Part shown: positions 21 to 16,815 of the stretch, one piece after another
How the letters are laid out: the number at the start of each line of letters is the position of its first letter
Numbering within the stretch: the stretch's first letter is position 1
NCBI RefSeq assembly: GCF_003315245.1
Contig: NZ_QNRT01000004.1
Span: 62,001 to 126,000 of the forward strand
Length of the DNA stretch: 64,000 nt
Direction: 5' to 3'
From: Arenicella xantha
GTDB taxonomy: Bacteria; Pseudomonadota; Gammaproteobacteria; Arenicellales; Arenicellaceae
Notes under the pieces: model-generated
The model's input: the letters and a program-made list of their open reading frames with translations, nothing else
The model's database searches: none
What the model was told of the DNA's origin: nothing
Position numbers and translations under genes: made by a program

Positions 21-1541
21 TTAGAAGAATCCTAGCGGATTTGTGTCGTAGCTCACTAGCAGGTTTTTGGTTTGTTGGTAGTGCTCCAAAGCAACTTTAT
101 GCGTGTAACGACCAATTCCTGATTTTTTGTAGCCACCAAATGCAGCATGGGCGGGGTATAGGTGGTAGCAATTTGTCCAGACCCGACCAGCTTGAATGCC
201 TCTGCCCATTCGATACGATAAATTCATATCGCGGGTCCATACACCGGCACCTAAACCAAAGTCACTGTCGTTAGCTATTTCTAATGCTTCTTCCGGCGTT
301 TTAAATGTGGTTACTGATACCACAGGCCCAAATATTTCTTCTTGAAACACTCGCATGTTGTTGCTGCCTTTTAATAAGGTCGGCTCTACGTAATAGCCTG
401 CTTCACAGCCGTCACCAATGTTTGCTGCGTTGCCGCCGGTAATGACCTCGGCGCCTTCTTCAAGGCCAATTTTTATATAATCTAGGATTCGATCAAACTG
501 CTCTTGCGATACTTGCGCGCCCACCATGACATCCGTATCGAGCGGGCTGCCACGCTTGATTTGACTCGCGCGGTCAATCACCATACCGATAAATTCGTCG
601 TAAATTGATTCTTCAATTAGCAACCGAGATGGGCAGGTGCATACTTCGCCTTGGTTAAAGAATGCCAGCACGGCGCCTTCGACACACTTGCTGACAAACT
701 CATCTTCTTGGTTGAGTATATCGGCAAAAAACACATTCGGAGACTTGCCGCCTAGTTCGACCGAAGAGGGGATTAAGCTGGCGGCAGCACATCTTAATAT
801 GTGTTGGCCGACGGGGGTTGACCCAGTGAAGGCAATCTTGGCAATTCGATCGCTAGTGGCTAACGCATTGCCAGCCTCTTCGCCAAACCCGTTAACTACG
901 TTAAGCACGCCTTTTGGCATTATGTCGCCAACTAGTTCCATTAGCATTAAGATTGTTGCCGGCGTTTGTTCTGCTGGTTTTAGCACCACACAATTGCCTG
1001 CTGCTATCGCTGGCGTCAAATTCCAGATAGCCATTAGTAGCGGGAAATTCCATGGAATGATTTGCCCGACCACACCGAGCGGTTCATGGAAGTGATAGGC
1101 CACAGTGTTGTTGTCTAGCTCGCTAATAGAGCCTTCTTGCGCACGCAAACAGCCAGCGTAGTATCGTAGATGGTCGATACAAAGGGGTACATCGGCGTTC
1201 AAAGTTTCTCTAATAGCTTTGCCATTGTCCCACGTTTCGGCCACGGCAAGCGCTTCTAGATGCTGTTCCATCCGGTCAGCAATCTTGAGTAAGATATTCG
1301 ATCGCTCACTAACCGAGGTGCTGCCCCAGGCATCTTTGGCTTCATGTGCCGCATCTAAAGCCAGGTTTATGTCCTGCTCGTCAGACCTAGGTATCTCGCA
1401 GAACGCTTTCCCATTAACAGGCGAGATATTGTCAAAGTATTTCCCATTGACGGGTTTGACCCATTCACCGCCAATGTAATTTTCATAACGTTGTTTGAAA
1501 GAGACAATGGCTCCTTCAGTATTTGGATTTTGATATTGCAT
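21..1541 (-). CDS. NAD-dependent acetaldehyde-type aldehyde dehydrogenase (AldB/ExaC-like)
   Basis: Full-length 506-residue aldehyde dehydrogenase that would oxidise a short aliphatic aldehyde to the acid with NAD(P). The substrate-channel motif PWNFP is at residues 163-167, the general base lies in VELGGKSP (Glu262), and the nucleophile is Cys301 in NQGEVC. The C-terminus ends in NPLGFF, typical of the AldB/ExaC/AcoD acetaldehyde subgroup and its usual ~506-residue size. The ATG is preceded by a strong AAGGAG ribosome site. Its neighbour upstream on the same strand, 238 bases away, is a hybrid histidine kinase of the type often linked to alcohol or aldehyde oxidation, so regulation by that kinase is possible but not shown. 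Family call is firm; the exact substrate is inferred. Confidence 0.93.
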
Positions 1542-11632: not shown

Positions 11633-14600
11633 ATGGGTACCCCGACTCACCAGTTGAATAATGTGCTGATGTTTAATCTTGCTGTGCGAACTGCTCGGCT
11701 TAGTGGAATAGTTCTGATTGTAAGCCTAATTTTCGGCCGAGCGGTGCTGGCAGATGATTCAGCGCGGCGGCTTGTAACCGGTGCTGATCTAAGTCAACCA
11801 CGGAGCATCGAGATTGCTCTCAACCCGAATTCGTATGTGGTAATTAGGGTTGCGCAACGCACCGCGGATTATCAACTGGCTTTGTATCGTTCCAGTGACG
11901 CCACGCTAATTAGACAGGTGAATTTGTCGGCGCACAAAGCGGTTGATGAACTAATGTTGGTGGAGGCTTCAGACTGTCGTCAATGTCGGGTCGAACTGAT
12001 GGCCGACAGTCTCATTGACCAGCGCGGTACGTACCAAATGACTGTCGAAACAGTTGCGGTTACCCCATCGTCAATGTCGACAAACTCACGCGCCGAGCTG
12101 GAAACTCTTCGTGCTATTTCGCAAGTGGGAGAGCTCAACCATAAGCTCTATCAAGCGCAGGATGATGATACCAATTATTTAGCATTGGCCTCTCAGTTGC
12201 TTGAGTCAAGTTTGACTATGACTCCGCAGAATGCCCATACATTGCAGGCTACCTTTTTGGCGTTGCAAGTGGCTGGTATGCAGCGTCAAACAGAAGTCGT
12301 TACCGAGCTGGCACAACAGATTGCGGCAACCGCGGATCAAAGAATAAGTCTATATAGTATCCAGGCGGTCTATGAACTTGCACGGCAAGCTGACAATATA
12401 GCGAATAAGCATGCGTTGTTTCGGCGCGGCATGGCCGATGCAATTACTGTTTCTGAGCCGTTACTGTATGCCAAGGGGGCTAATTATTTGGCAATTAGCT
12501 TAACCCGCGAAGGTCGTTTTGAAGATTCGATAACGTTATTTAAGGATGTTTACGAGATCTACTCGCGAGAACAGCATTTGGCCGCGTTGATGTTCGCACT
12601 GCATAACCTAAGTTGGGCAAGTCAGCGGTCCGGCGATTTGCCCAAGGCTATTTCGTATGCGGCACAGCAGAAAATGGTGGCTGAAGAGAATCAAGCGCAG
12701 TCTAGCGTAATTTGGTCGCTTTACAATATGGCGATCGCCTACGGTGAGTTAGGCGACCACTTCGAGGCTGATCAATTTTTAGACCAAGCGTTAGAGCGCT
12801 ACTCGGTGTTGCCTGAGTCAGAGCAGCGTGACAATGACGGAATTTACGGGGCTATTTTAGAGGAGCGTGCCGAGAGCTTATTACGCCTAGGCGATGTAGC
12901 GTCAGCGCGAGATCTGGCAATACTGATTAAGGCGCACTATGAACAGGGTAATTTTCAACGCAATCTAGCGCATTTTGGCATGCTGGAAGGTAAGATCGCG
13001 ATCGCCGCCGAGCGTTTTGATGATGCCCGCGATGTGCTCACTGAAACACTGGAGTATTACCAGAAGACCGAAGAAGGTCGCAGTGCCGGTTTAGCGCATT
13101 TTCGCTTAGCCGAGTTAGAACTTACCCAGGGCAATTTGATTCTAGGATCGACGCATAATGCCGCTGCCCTCAAGAAGCTGTCTGGTACCGAGGACTATTT
13201 CTCTCTGGCTAAGGCATTTAGCCAAGCCGTTGAGGTGCTGAATGTGCTTGGAGCGCATACCGACGCCGCAGCGTTGGCCGCGCAAGTTACTAACTTTATT
13301 GGCACTCATGGGCGAGAGGATGTTGAAGCTGAATTTGCTTATCGGCGCGCTAAAGTCGCGCAGCAATTAAAGCAAACCGATGCGGCGCTGCTGTGGTTGA
13401 ACGAGGCTAAGCGATTGCTTGAAGAGAAGTTGCCCAAGGTTAAGCGGCGTGACTTAAGGCAGCAGTATTTAGCCTTGCAGAAGTCGTTGTTTGAACTAAA
13501 TATTGGACTGCTGGTAGATCAGGGCCAAACCGAGAAAGCCTTGCAGGTAGTCGAATCGTTTAAGGCGAGAACCTTGAAGGAAACGATCAACCAAGTTCGA
13601 AACACGCAGGCTTTGCCAAGTGCTTTACAGCAAACGCGTCGACTTTTGCATCAACAGATACTGCAGAGTGCAACGACTTGGTATAGCGACCCGAGTCGCC
13701 GAGAAGTGTCACTATTAGCCAATACTAGAGTATTGAGTACTGAACTGGAGAAGGTAGAACTTGATATTGCGGCGCTGCAAGGCAAAGTCCAACCTAATAG
13801 TCCAGACGACTCTCTGCCAGCCATTCCGCAACTCAACAACCCAAGTGAGTTGATGGCGTTTTATTTTATTGGTCAGCAGCGTAGTTGGATGTGGCTGCTC
13901 GAGTCGACAGGAATAAGTGTGTTTGAGTTGCCTGCTGCCAACGAGCTGTTACCTTTAGTGCATAGCCTAAAACAACAGGTCTCGCTGCATCCGCGCCATA
14001 GAACGGCTGGCAATGCGTATCAACAGAGGCAAGACTTGCTAAGTTTGGGAGAGCTCTTGCTTGGGCCGATTGCTAAACAGGTCGATTTTTCGAAGATCAG
14101 CAATCTAACTATTATTCCAGATGGGCCGTTGCATGGATTAACGTTTGCACCACTGCAATTGGCTAATTTGGATGGTCCTTTGTTGGCGCACACGGCAATT
14201 TCTTATGCTCCGTCATATCAGGCTTTAGTGGCGCTCGAACAGCGTGCTGAACGTAACAATTCACTAGCCTCAGCGATGAATGTGTTGGTCGTTGCTGACC
14301 CTATTGATTTAACCCTCGAAAAGTCACCATTCGAGCGCTTGCCGGCAACGGTGTATGAAGCGCAACAAATTAGATCAATTTTAGGTGATCGAGTGCAGGT
14401 GTTGATGGGCGAGGGCGCGACTAAAAAAAACTTACTCAAAGCGCTGTCGCATCGATATTCCATTTTGCATTTTGCTACGCACGGTCTATTGAATAATCAG
14501 ACGCCGGCACTGTCTGGTTTAGTATTTTCACGTAACTCGACGGACGCACATTTTTGGTTGACACCGGAGATCAGCAGCACAGATTTGCAAGCCAATTTGG

Positions 14601-14932
14601 TTGTGTTGAGTGCTTGCGAAAGTTCGATTGGTAGAGAGGTGGCAGGCGAAGGCTTGCTGAGTTTGAGTCGTGCATTTATCGAGGCTGGGGCGAGCCACGT
14701 TATTGGAACTTTGTGGAAAGTACAAGACACCGCTACGGCGCAACTGACGAGTCGATTTTATTCTAAGCTGTTAGATGATAGTCTAGCTGTCTCGGTTGCG
14801 CTGCAAATGGCGCAACTTGAGGTTTATAACGATCAACAAAACGATTGGCGTGACCCTTATTACTGGGCCGGATTTCAACTTCAAGGTGGTTGGCAAACAT
14901 TAACCTATGGTAGCGATAAAAGCACCGAGTGA
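11633..14932 (+). CDS. Exported TPR-CHAT caspase-like protease protein
   Basis: 1099 residues. An N-terminal hydrophobic segment (about 23-40, GIVLIVSLIFGRAVLA) followed by Asp-Asp looks like a signal peptide or anchor. A beta-rich region (45-145) with a CRQC pair precedes a long helical TPR array from about 150 to 680. The CHAT domain fills about 770-1090, with the caspase-like dyad His950 in HFATHG and Cys995 in LSACES, and the conserved GTLWKV block. CHAT is a clan CD peptidase fold that includes separase-like and Craspase proteases. Its gene overlaps the ECF sigma gene by 26 bases, so the two are translationally coupled. The substrate is unknown; the membrane anti-sigma-like protein and the Cys-rich protein of the same operon are candidates by context. 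Start choice (11633 or ATG at 11669) is unsupported by a good ribosome site. Confidence 0.88.
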   Translation: MGTPTHQLNNVLMFNLAVRTARLSGIVLIVSLIFGRAVLADDSARRLVTGADLSQPRSIEIALNPNSYVVIRVAQRTADYQLALYRSSDATLIRQVNLSAHKAVDELMLVEASDCRQCRVELMADSLIDQRGTYQMTVETVAVTPSSMSTNSRAELETLRAISQVGELNHKLYQAQDDDTNYLALASQLLESSLTMTPQNAHTLQATFLALQVAGMQRQTEVVTELAQQIAATADQRISLYSIQAVYELARQADNIANKHALFRRGMADAITVSEPLLYAKGANYLAISLTREGRFEDSITLFKDVYEIYSREQHLAALMFALHNLSWASQRSGDLPKAISYAAQQKMVAEENQAQSSVIWSLYNMAIAYGELGDHFEADQFLDQALERYSVLPESEQRDNDGIYGAILEERAESLLRLGDVASARDLAILIKAHYEQGNFQRNLAHFGMLEGKIAIAAERFDDARDVLTETLEYYQKTEEGRSAGLAHFRLAELELTQGNLILGSTHNAAALKKLSGTEDYFSLAKAFSQAVEVLNVLGAHTDAAALAAQVTNFIGTHGREDVEAEFAYRRAKVAQQLKQTDAALLWLNEAKRLLEEKLPKVKRRDLRQQYLALQKSLFELNIGLLVDQGQTEKALQVVESFKARTLKETINQVRNTQALPSALQQTRRLLHQQILQSATTWYSDPSRREVSLLANTRVLSTELEKVELDIAALQGKVQPNSPDDSLPAIPQLNNPSELMAFYFIGQQRSWMWLLESTGISVFELPAANELLPLVHSLKQQVSLHPRHRTAGNAYQQRQDLLSLGELLLGPIAKQVDFSKISNLTIIPDGPLHGLTFAPLQLANLDGPLLAHTAISYAPSYQALVALEQRAERNNSLASAMNVLVVADPIDLTLEKSPFERLPATVYEAQQIRSILGDRVQVLMGEGATKKNLLKALSHRYSILHFATHGLLNNQTPALSGLVFSRNSTDAHFWLTPEISSTDLQANLVVLSACESSIGREVAGEGLLSLSRAFIEAGASHVIGTLWKVQDTATAQLTSRFYSKLLDDSLAVSVALQMAQLEVYNDQQNDWRDPYYWAGFQLQGGWQTLTYGSDKSTE

Positions 14933-15491
14933 AGCGTCGGTTTCTCACCAGCTGGTAGCTCGAATTCTTGACGGTGACCTAAGCGCAGAGCGAGAGATGG
15001 TGGAGCGCTATCAACGTGGTCTCGGCGTCATGTTGTTTAACCGTGCGCGAGACCGCGAACTGGCTAATGATATTGCGCAAGATACCTGGGTCTTGGTGTT
15101 GCAGAAAATTCGCGACAATCAGCTACGCGATCAGTCTAAATTGGCCGCATTTATTATCCAGATTGCCAAAAATCAACTCATCATGCGGATGCGCAGTAGG
15201 GCGAAACAACAGTTCGTTACTGAAGATGAAGTTGGGGAGATGCGCGACCCGGGCCTAAGTCCAGATAAAATGATGGTAAATGAACAGCTTGGAGAGTGCG
15301 TCACATCACTTATGGGGGAGTTGAAAGTGGATCGTGATCGTCAGATTCTGCAGCGATTTTACCTAGTTGGCGACGATAAAGACGCCTTGTGCGAGGAATT
15401 CGGTTTGAGTCACGCACACTTCGACCGAGTGCTTTATCGAGCACGTGAGAGGTTTAAGTCTCTTTGGCACGAAAATGTTGGAAAAAGGTAG
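14907..15491 (+). CDS. ECF-type sigma-70 family sigma factor
   Basis: 194 residues. Region 2 (about 15-95) contains the core-binding and -10 recognition helices with the typical RELANDIAQDTWVLVLQKI stretch. Region 4 (about 130-187) holds the helix-turn-helix around LCEEFGLSHAHFDRVLYRAR. There is no region 3, as in ECF sigma factors. The ATG lies inside the 3' end of the CHAT gene. The next gene encodes a membrane protein resembling an anti-sigma factor, so this sigma is likely held at the membrane until a signal releases it. Its own target promoter was not identified. Confidence 0.9.
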   Translation: MVAIKAPSEASVSHQLVARILDGDLSAEREMVERYQRGLGVMLFNRARDRELANDIAQDTWVLVLQKIRDNQLRDQSKLAAFIIQIAKNQLIMRMRSRAKQQFVTEDEVGEMRDPGLSPDKMMVNEQLGECVTSLMGELKVDRDRQILQRFYLVGDDKDALCEEFGLSHAHFDRVLYRARERFKSLWHENVGKR

Positions 15492-15544
15492 GTCTTGGTG
15501 AGAGAAATAGAGAACAGAGTGCACCATCGTTTTAAAGGTGACTC

Positions 15545-16240
15545 ATGGAAATGACAATGGAAAATCTCGAGCAGATTATTAAGCAATATGTGCTTGGCCA
15601 GCTTGATGAGCAGGATGCTGAGGCGTTTGAGGAGTACTTTCTTGCGCGGCCAGAGATAGCTGAGCAAATAGAGGCCGTACAACAATTGCATTTAGGTCTT
15701 GGGGTCGTGGAGTCTGAGCTATCGGATAGTGATGATTACCAATTGACGAATGAGTCTGCTGTTGGCAAGGCCGATTTCGAGGTTCCGGCACACACTCTAT
15801 CGGCTATGTTTTCACGTTACATGGTCGGTCCGGCTCAGTCGATGACCATGGCGGCTATGCTGCTTATTTTGGCACCACTAGCGCTGACCTCTATGCAGCA
15901 TTCGGCAGACCCGGTATCAGCACAATTGATTCGTCTTGATTCGGCGACGGTTCGTAGCTCGGTGCCACAGTCTAGTATCTCTTTACCGAGCGATGGCGGA
16001 TATGCCGCGGTCATGGTGCGTGTGCGTGATGTTGAGTTCCCTGAGTATCGTTTACAAGTACAAGGAGCTACCGAGTGGCGGAGCGAACCATTTGAATTTA
16101 GTAGCGGATCGCGAGACCACTTAGTGTTGATACCTCCAAGTATTGCCGCAGGGAATGTAAAAGTAACCTTGTTGGCGACAACGGTCGATGGTCAAGAGCG
16201 CGCCGTGCCATTTTGTAACTATACCGAAGCTTGTATGTAA
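15545..16240 (+). CDS. Membrane anti-sigma-factor-like protein
   Basis: 231 residues. The N-terminal 50 residues (LEQIIKQYVLGQLDEQDAE and following) resemble the sigma-binding helical domain of ECF anti-sigma factors but lack the zinc ligands of the ZAS motif: no cysteine occurs before residue 224. A single membrane span at about 99-117 (MTMAAMLLILAPLALTSM) is followed by about 110 residues of beta-rich sequence predicted periplasmic, with Cys224 and Cys230 near the end. The order sigma then anti-sigma is standard for ECF operons. The family call rests on context, topology and the weak N-terminal likeness rather than on a clear domain match. Confidence 0.7.
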   Translation: MEMTMENLEQIIKQYVLGQLDEQDAEAFEEYFLARPEIAEQIEAVQQLHLGLGVVESELSDSDDYQLTNESAVGKADFEVPAHTLSAMFSRYMVGPAQSMTMAAMLLILAPLALTSMQHSADPVSAQLIRLDSATVRSSVPQSSISLPSDGGYAAVMVRVRDVEFPEYRLQVQGATEWRSEPFEFSSGSRDHLVLIPPSIAAGNVKVTLLATTVDGQERAVPFCNYTEACM

Positions 16241-16304
16241 GCACGGTAGCTCGACTAATTTGTCCAACAATCAACTCAATTAACCAGCTATACAGAGGAA
16301 CTTG

Positions 16305-16763
16305 ATGAATATTAAAGCAGCCTTCTTGGCCGAAATAAAAAAACACACTTGGTCGGTGTGCACGATAGAAAAAGGGCGGTCTTATCAGGTCGGAGATAAT
16401 TTTTCGGTTGTCGGTGACGAAGGAACGATAAGCAAAGTTGTGGTGGTTTCAAACGGGGGCAAGGATGAACAAGTAATGTTGCCGATTAAAGGTAGCTTGG
16501 AGGTAGAGGCGACCGATAATAGCGAGCTTACTTTTGGCTTTAAGTACAAATCAGACAAAGGTGCCGTAAAACAGTTTTTTATGCGCTTTCATTTTTTCTG
16601 CAATGACCCCGCCGTGTTTAGATTTAGCAGTAACCCATTCACTAAGGGCGAATGCGAATGTAACTGTAACTGCTGTTGTTGCGGCGGCGTCAAAACGCAA
16701 TATGTTTTGTACTCAACCTATGATGATGGCGATCGCGGTACCGGTGGTCCACACGCACACTAA
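16305..16763 (+). CDS. Small protein with a dense C-terminal cysteine cluster
   Basis: 152 residues from ATG 16305, chosen because AGAGGAA lies just upstream; a TTG one codon earlier is less likely. The first 110 residues look like a small beta-rich globular domain without signal peptide. Residues 117-126 (CECNCNCCCC) contain seven cysteines in ten positions, followed by Gly-Gly, a beta strand (TQYVLYSTY) and a Gly/His-rich tail ending in HAH. Two other cysteines are at 19 and 99. The cluster could bind metal or an iron-sulfur centre, or be a redox sensor. I do not recognise the family. It is the last gene of the CHAT-sigma operon and is followed by a strong terminator. Confidence 0.75.
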   Translation: MNIKAAFLAEIKKHTWSVCTIEKGRSYQVGDNFSVVGDEGTISKVVVVSNGGKDEQVMLPIKGSLEVEATDNSELTFGFKYKSDKGAVKQFFMRFHFFCNDPAVFRFSSNPFTKGECECNCNCCCCGGVKTQYVLYSTYDDGDRGTGGPHAH

Positions 16764-16789
16764 TTTTCTAAACCATGTTGTTTAAAAAG

Positions 16790-16815
16790 CCGAGTTAATT
16801 AACTCGGTTTTTTTT
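16790..16815 (+). terminator. Rho-independent terminator of the CHAT-sigma operon
   Basis: The 18-base perfect palindrome CCGAGTTAATTAACTCGG (16790-16807) is followed by eight T residues (16808-16815) and preceded by AAAAAG, so it could work in both directions. It lies 26 bases after the stop of the Cys-rich gene. Confidence 0.9.

Follow-up and report, generated by a model that had tools for sequence, protein, structure and literature searches.

What does a CHAT protease, a relative of caspases and separases, do beside a sigma factor? The question is raised by an operon of Arenicella xantha that lies in a stretch of 64,000 nucleotides (contig NZ_QNRT01000004.1, positions 62,001 to 126,000; here called the window) and encodes, in order, a TPR-CHAT protein, an extracytoplasmic function (ECF) sigma factor, an anti-sigma-like protein, and a Cys-rich small protein. 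A first-pass annotation of this DNA had suggested, by analogy with the type III-E CRISPR (clustered regularly interspaced short palindromic repeats) system, that the protease may cleave the anti-sigma-like protein and so free the sigma factor. That interpretation is partly supported by the analysis described here. The account that we favor, and that we regard as on balance probable, is an envelope-located, protease-gated transcription switch in which an exported CHAT protease would cut a membrane anti-sigma at Arg137 (R137), after which RseP-type proteolysis would free the sigma factor.

The operon and its occurrence

All four open reading frames run consecutively on the plus strand as first annotated, the first two share 26 bases (14907-14932), and the 13-bp stem of the closing terminator contains the perfect palindrome CCGAGTTAATTAACTCGG, followed by T's. 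This four-gene operon with its terminator is real, and it is not a chance arrangement, because it recurs complete in two other Arenicella genomes (L024 and L025; 42-71% protein identity), where the genes keep the same order between ppc and ubiB/ABC genes. In two further genomes (L129 and L131) ppc and ubiB are immediate neighbors, with no gene separating them; the operon has therefore been gained or lost as a unit.

Profile matches identify the first two products. The first is a CHAT protein (Pfam PF12770, E = 3.9e-63, 214 bits against a cut-off of 24) with a TPR_12 match, and the clan CD-type peptidase with Cys995 that had been proposed for it was borne out by a His950/Cys995 dyad that is invariant in 22 homologues. 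Aligned with Csx29, the TPR-CHAT protein of type III-E systems, H950 falls at the Csx29 "HG" and C995 at its "ACE." D1032 is invariant alongside the dyad in the same 22 homologues; we considered it as the S1 Asp of separase and dropped it, as in our own alignment the P1-contact Asp of separase falls four residues later when counted from the catalytic Cys. The second product matches Sigma70_r2 (E = 7.5e-8, 32.5 bits against a cut-off of 24) and TIGR02937 (46.6 bits against 42.9) and has regions sigma2 and sigma4 only, as in ECF (group IV) sigma factors; its region 4 motif AHFDRVL was invariant across the first six homologues aligned. Pfam gave nothing above cut-off for the third or fourth gene. 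The third gene is weakly matched by an NCBIfam anti-sigma model (2.6e-4, well under the model cut-off), and its N-terminal domain weakly matches a solved chain, 3hug_B (the anti-sigma RslA; E = 0.19). Together with its place beside the sigma gene, these matches suggest that the protein binds and inhibits the sigma factor.

Scanning about 85,000 species genomes with an alignment of the sigma factor yielded 23 loci, all gammaproteobacterial, from Arenicella, Alteromonadaceae (Alteromonas, Aliiglaciecola, Aestuariibacter, Neptunicella, and Bowmanella), Hahella, Lysobacterales/Xanthomonadales, Oceanospirillales, and Marinicella. In all 23 the sigma gene is directly followed by a gene of about 200 to 245 codons whose product has the anti-sigma N-terminus, and a CHAT gene lies at most 5 kb from the sigma gene in 21; the remaining two loci, L053 and L058, are cut short by the end of their contigs, in L058 within a gene for a TPR lipoprotein. 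The trio occurs as CHAT-sigma-antisigma, as sigma-antisigma-cargo-CHAT, or with CHAT apart or divergent, and since its gene orders differ, the linkage is selected. Among 40 control CHAT loci from other gammaproteobacteria (in three of which our open reading frame filter missed the CHAT gene), the sigma/anti-sigma pair was found only at L095, and two more had an unrelated sigma gene within 4 kb. The association of CHAT with this sigma/anti-sigma pair is thus specific. Homologue distances co-vary for the sigma factor, the anti-sigma, and each of the two CHAT halves (Mantel r 0.59-0.85, p = 0.0001), which shows joint inheritance and not necessarily interaction. Conservation of the genes as a group, on which the first-pass annotation had staked its reading, therefore held for the trio, across several gammaproteobacterial orders, and failed for the Cys-rich gene, which is confined to Arenicella.

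A large gammaproteobacterial genome, G424, holds four sigma paralogues of this subfamily (L104, L105, L106, and L154); anti-sigmas with the Arg motif described below are found at two of them, and a CHAT gene within about 8 kb at none.

Topology, the invariant arginine, and the proposed switch

Export of CHAT and topology of the anti-sigma were judged by hydrophobicity only. On this measure the N-terminus of the window CHAT is a typical Sec signal peptide, LSGIVLIVSLIFGRAVLA, ending in VLA ahead of DD, and 20 other full-length CHATs of the family all have a hydrophobic N-terminus with a Sec signal or a lipobox (LLAGC or LSAC in some, for example). These signals suggest that the family members are exported, as a soluble periplasmic protein or, in some species, as a lipoprotein. 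In passing, we observed that many signal-peptide CHATs at the control loci (L064 to L103) adjoin recurring large genes of about 550 to 650 codons, another widespread context of exported CHATs.

The anti-sigma spans the membrane. Its AlphaFold model has helices at residues 5-16, 22-33, and 36-62 (confident over residues 1-60, with a predicted local distance difference test score [pLDDT] above 90 for residues 1-50), a transmembrane helix at 101-118, and a beta-sandwich from residue 144 on. By hydrophobicity, 23 of 25 anti-sigmas, the window's included, have a transmembrane segment within residues 73-117; in the exceptions, L040 scored slightly under the threshold of 1.5 and another segment was picked in L041. 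Positive charges lie mostly on the N side of the single transmembrane segment, and the N-terminus is therefore inside, so that the helical domain would face the cytoplasm. Among solved chains we found no significant relative of the anti-sigma, only weak Ig/FnIII-like matches.

Signals, lipoboxes, and the inside-positive transmembrane segment thus place CHAT and the outer domain of the anti-sigma in one extracytoplasmic compartment. The membrane would separate CHAT from the sigma factor, and therefore only the anti-sigma can connect them. Because CHAT carries export signals and the anti-sigma spans the membrane, a DegS/RseA-like model fits better than a cytoplasmic, Csx29-like one, and here the earlier analogy with Csx29, which implied a single compartment, gives way to periplasmic site-1 cleavage. 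We rejected a cytoplasmic Csx29-like mechanism on the export signals. That the operon is such a switch after loss of its CRISPR partner is accordingly very improbable: Csx29 is the nearest solved relative of CHAT by sequence and its dyad matches, but the similarity is weak (E about 0.02) and confined to the CHAT domain, the anti-sigma has no significant match to any solved chain, and the window holds no CRISPR array. The earlier remark that CRISPR is absent stands to this extent, that no direct repeat of at least 22 bases recurs within 200 bp in the 64-kb window, cas genes and Cas7-11 not having been searched for genome-wide.

Where would an exported protease cut? Only three residues are invariant in 25 aligned anti-sigmas, Y15, E29, and R137, and a second alignment of 26 sequences agrees. 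The first two lie in the cytoplasmic domain, which leaves R137 as the sole invariant periplasmic residue. Across the family it stands 16 to 34 residues past the membrane; the next residue is in every case Ser, Gly, or Ala, and the surrounding sequence most often reads V-x-L-E-x-x-R-S/G. The Arg pattern occurs within 75 residues after the transmembrane segment in 22 of 22 nonredundant anti-sigmas; in 20,000 shuffles the count averaged 7.7 and peaked at 15, and none equaled the observed count. The motif was also present in an out-of-sample member found later by a different query (L153), whereas none of seven anti-sigmas from other families has it. In the window protein it falls in a loop (residues 132-139) with a pLDDT below 50 that is predicted to be disordered. 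Separases, which among eukaryotic proteins are the closest relatives of CHAT (PMC9729208), cut after (D/E)xxR (PMC4626109), a consensus that about 60% of the anti-sigma sites fit, and the conserved Arg-small dipeptide looks like a separase-like cleavage site.

From the gene order and its conservation, the dyad, the export signals, the membrane anchor, and the invariant dipeptide in its loop, we propose the following switch. The single-pass anti-sigma would keep the ECF sigma factor at the inner membrane, its N-terminal domain binding the sigma factor in the cytoplasm. The TPR part of the exported cysteine protease, resident in the periplasm, would sense a cue, and the protease would then cut between Arg137 and Ser138 in the disordered loop beyond the membrane, as site-1 cleavage. 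RseP-type intramembrane proteolysis (the genome encodes one RseP-type M50 protease) and cytoplasmic degradation would subsequently release the sigma factor to its regulon.

Several points weigh against this proposal. The window site, ATVR followed by S, has Ala at P4 in place of Asp or Glu and fits the separase consensus at P1 only, and Csx29 shows no essential substrate residue. CHAT has no evident counterpart of the Asp with which separase contacts P1 Arg (Asp1082 in Caenorhabditis elegans), and only 19 of 22 homologues keep E909, the candidate S1 acid, so that the features of the enzyme do not establish Arg specificity. Most gammaproteobacterial CHATs, as seen at the 40 control loci, appear to be exported too, and export is therefore not particular to the sigma/anti-sigma association. 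Lastly, two family anti-sigmas of G424 keep the Arg motif with no CHAT gene within about 8 to 9 kb, in a genome that encodes at least four CHATs elsewhere; the Arg could therefore be structural or have another role, or CHAT could act in trans. A structural or sensor contact, with site-1 cleavage left to another, DegS-like protease, would accommodate these two proteins and the unproven Arg pocket of CHAT. We nonetheless consider it quite unlikely, as a structural residue would be unusual in a predicted disordered loop, a small residue always follows the Arg, and no other residue nearby is invariant.

The main rival to the proposed switch makes CHAT its output: the sigma/anti-sigma pair would sense envelope stress itself and induce an exported protease, together with a peroxidase or the Cys-rich protein, that remodels or kills. 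Neighboring genes are often under ECF sigma control, and in many loci CHAT comes last, like an effector, after the sigma, anti-sigma, and peroxidase-like (An_peroxidase) genes. In the Arenicella operon, however, the CHAT gene lies upstream of the sigma gene and overlaps it; CHAT is the constant partner while other cargo varies; and an output role leaves the invariant Arg-small dipeptide unexplained. Nor did a comparison of upstream regions, by eye and with a sigma-70 scan, reveal a convincing ECF-type promoter or autoregulation motif. We judge an output role alone unlikely, if worth taking seriously; trigger and output roles may both hold. One way in which they could is a self-reinforcing switch, a special case of the proposed one with which its probability overlaps, in which CHAT is both a member of the sigma regulon and the protease that cuts the anti-sigma. 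The genes share one presumed operon with a single terminator, and positive autoregulation has been proposed for the CASP-sigma of type III-E systems (PMC10028731), but the lack of a recognizable sigma-specific promoter motif in the upstream regions counts here as well, and we hold this variant to be possible but somewhat doubtful.

Accessory genes and coordinates

Judging by its homologues, found in 3 of 61 related genomes (42-48% identity), the Cys-rich gene is an Arenicella-only accessory outside the conserved core. Its product has no signal peptide and a CECNCNCCCCGG motif, and its C-terminus (16641-16763) reads CECNCNCCCCGG...DGDRGTGGPHAH; the Cys cluster and a DGDxGxGG tail are retained in all three Arenicella homologues. 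These features suggest metal binding or a modified peptide. The protein has no family match and a poor AlphaFold model (pLDDT 40), and it does not significantly resemble the small proteins encoded upstream of CHAT at other loci.

Other Arenicella genomes have the order sigma, anti-sigma, animal-haem-peroxidase-like gene, small gene, CHAT. The peroxidase-like protein (PF03098) is divergent, with no obvious signal peptide, and in many loci it is encoded with a fast-evolving small protein between the anti-sigma and CHAT. Two Arenicella drafts (L027, 9143-10825, and L060, 993-5289) have split or shortened genes, from either decay or assembly errors: the peroxidase-like gene in both, and in L060 the sigma and CHAT genes as well. 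Like the Cys-rich gene, the peroxidase-like gene is variable cargo. A defence-library comparison returned insignificant matches only.

Features of the operon (window positions) and loci with the peroxidase-like gene
Feature	Position	Strand	Details
CHAT gene	11633-14932	+	1099 aa; start 11669 equally plausible; TPR-CHAT caspase/separase-like cysteine protease
Predicted CHAT signal peptide, from alternative start M13	11669-11752	+	MFNLAVRTARLSGIVLIVSLIFGRAVLA; Kyte-Doolittle 12-residue window 2.84
Catalytic His950 codon of CHAT	14480-14482	+	Invariance in 22 homologues; Csx29 alignment
Catalytic Cys995 codon of CHAT	14615-14617	+	Invariance in 22 homologues; Csx29 alignment
ECF (group IV) sigma gene	14907-15491	+	194 aa; Sigma70_r2, TIGR02937
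Anti-sigma-like gene	15545-16240	+	231 aa; weak NCBIfam match, AlphaFold model, hydrophobicity, alignment of 25
Predicted anti-sigma domains	Residues 1-60, 99-117, 126-221	+	Cytoplasmic helical; transmembrane; periplasmic Ig/FnIII-like beta-sandwich (AlphaFold, hydrophobicity, alignment)
Anti-sigma transmembrane helix, residues 99-117	15839-15895	+	Hydrophobicity and AlphaFold model
Predicted cleavage site of anti-sigma, Arg137-Ser138	15953-15958	+	20 residues past membrane, in loop 132-139
Cys-rich small-protein gene	16305-16763	+	152 aa from ATG; TTG at 16302
Intrinsic terminator at operon end	16784-16813	+	13-bp stem, 4-nt loop, T-run
Peroxidase-like gene loci	L026:6805-8448, L028:8540-10417, L042:9337-10800, L043, L046, L054, L055, L057, L059

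Comparison with known systems

CHAT genes beside sigma genes are already known from type III-E CRISPR (PMC10028731) and from the ECF54 group (PMC8999054). In the literature searched, which did not cover the main ECF classification, we found no account of an exported CHAT whose target is a membrane anti-sigma. If the proposed switch is true, it would be a new kind of protease gate for ECF sigma factors, and exported bacterial caspase relatives, which are common and functionally obscure, would gain a concrete substrate and cleavage site.

ECF54 sigma factors have CHAT, subtilase, or carboxypeptidase neighbors, and protease control has been proposed for them (PMC8999054). As in the present family, a CHAT gene belongs to the conserved neighborhood of the ECF sigma gene, but the ECF54 group is described without an anti-sigma, whereas a membrane anti-sigma follows the sigma gene in every locus here.

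The DegS/RseA/RpoE and RsiW/SigW systems share with ours a single-pass anti-sigma, an extracytoplasmic cut near the membrane (predicted here), and an RseP-type protease. Unlike the trypsin-like serine protease of DegS/RseA, the predicted site-1 protease here is a clan CD cysteine protease and the predicted site is Arg-small; the protease linked to the sigma gene is CHAT and not a trypsin-like enzyme with PDZ. Separase, for its part, offers a likeness in recognition at the (D/E)xxR-type sites, but its substrate is cohesin, and the Asp that binds P1 Arg finds no evident match in these CHATs.

The closest parallel in layout is the type III-E CASP/Craspase system of Csx29, Csx30, and CASP-sigma (PMC10028731, PMC9729208), in which a TPR-CHAT protease also stands beside an ECF sigma factor and its inhibitor, and the switch is thrown by cutting that inhibitor within a flexible loop. 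Csx29, however, is intracellular and bound to Cas7-11 and RNA, whereas the window CHAT is predicted to be exported; Csx30 is described without a membrane anchor, whereas the window anti-sigma spans the membrane; and the window has no CRISPR array. Similarity does not extend over the whole protein, the Csx29 model NF041237 matching only the CHAT core (32.8 bits against a cut-off of 300). We give an even chance to the broader claim that this is a CRISPR-independent, widespread gammaproteobacterial system in which an exported, separase-like CHAT is the site-1 protease and cuts the anti-sigma after the invariant Arg, and that it is a plausible cellular relative of the type III-E module. CHAT-gated sigma control would then exist apart from CRISPR and work across a membrane, and it would hint at the origin of the type III-E protease-sigma module.

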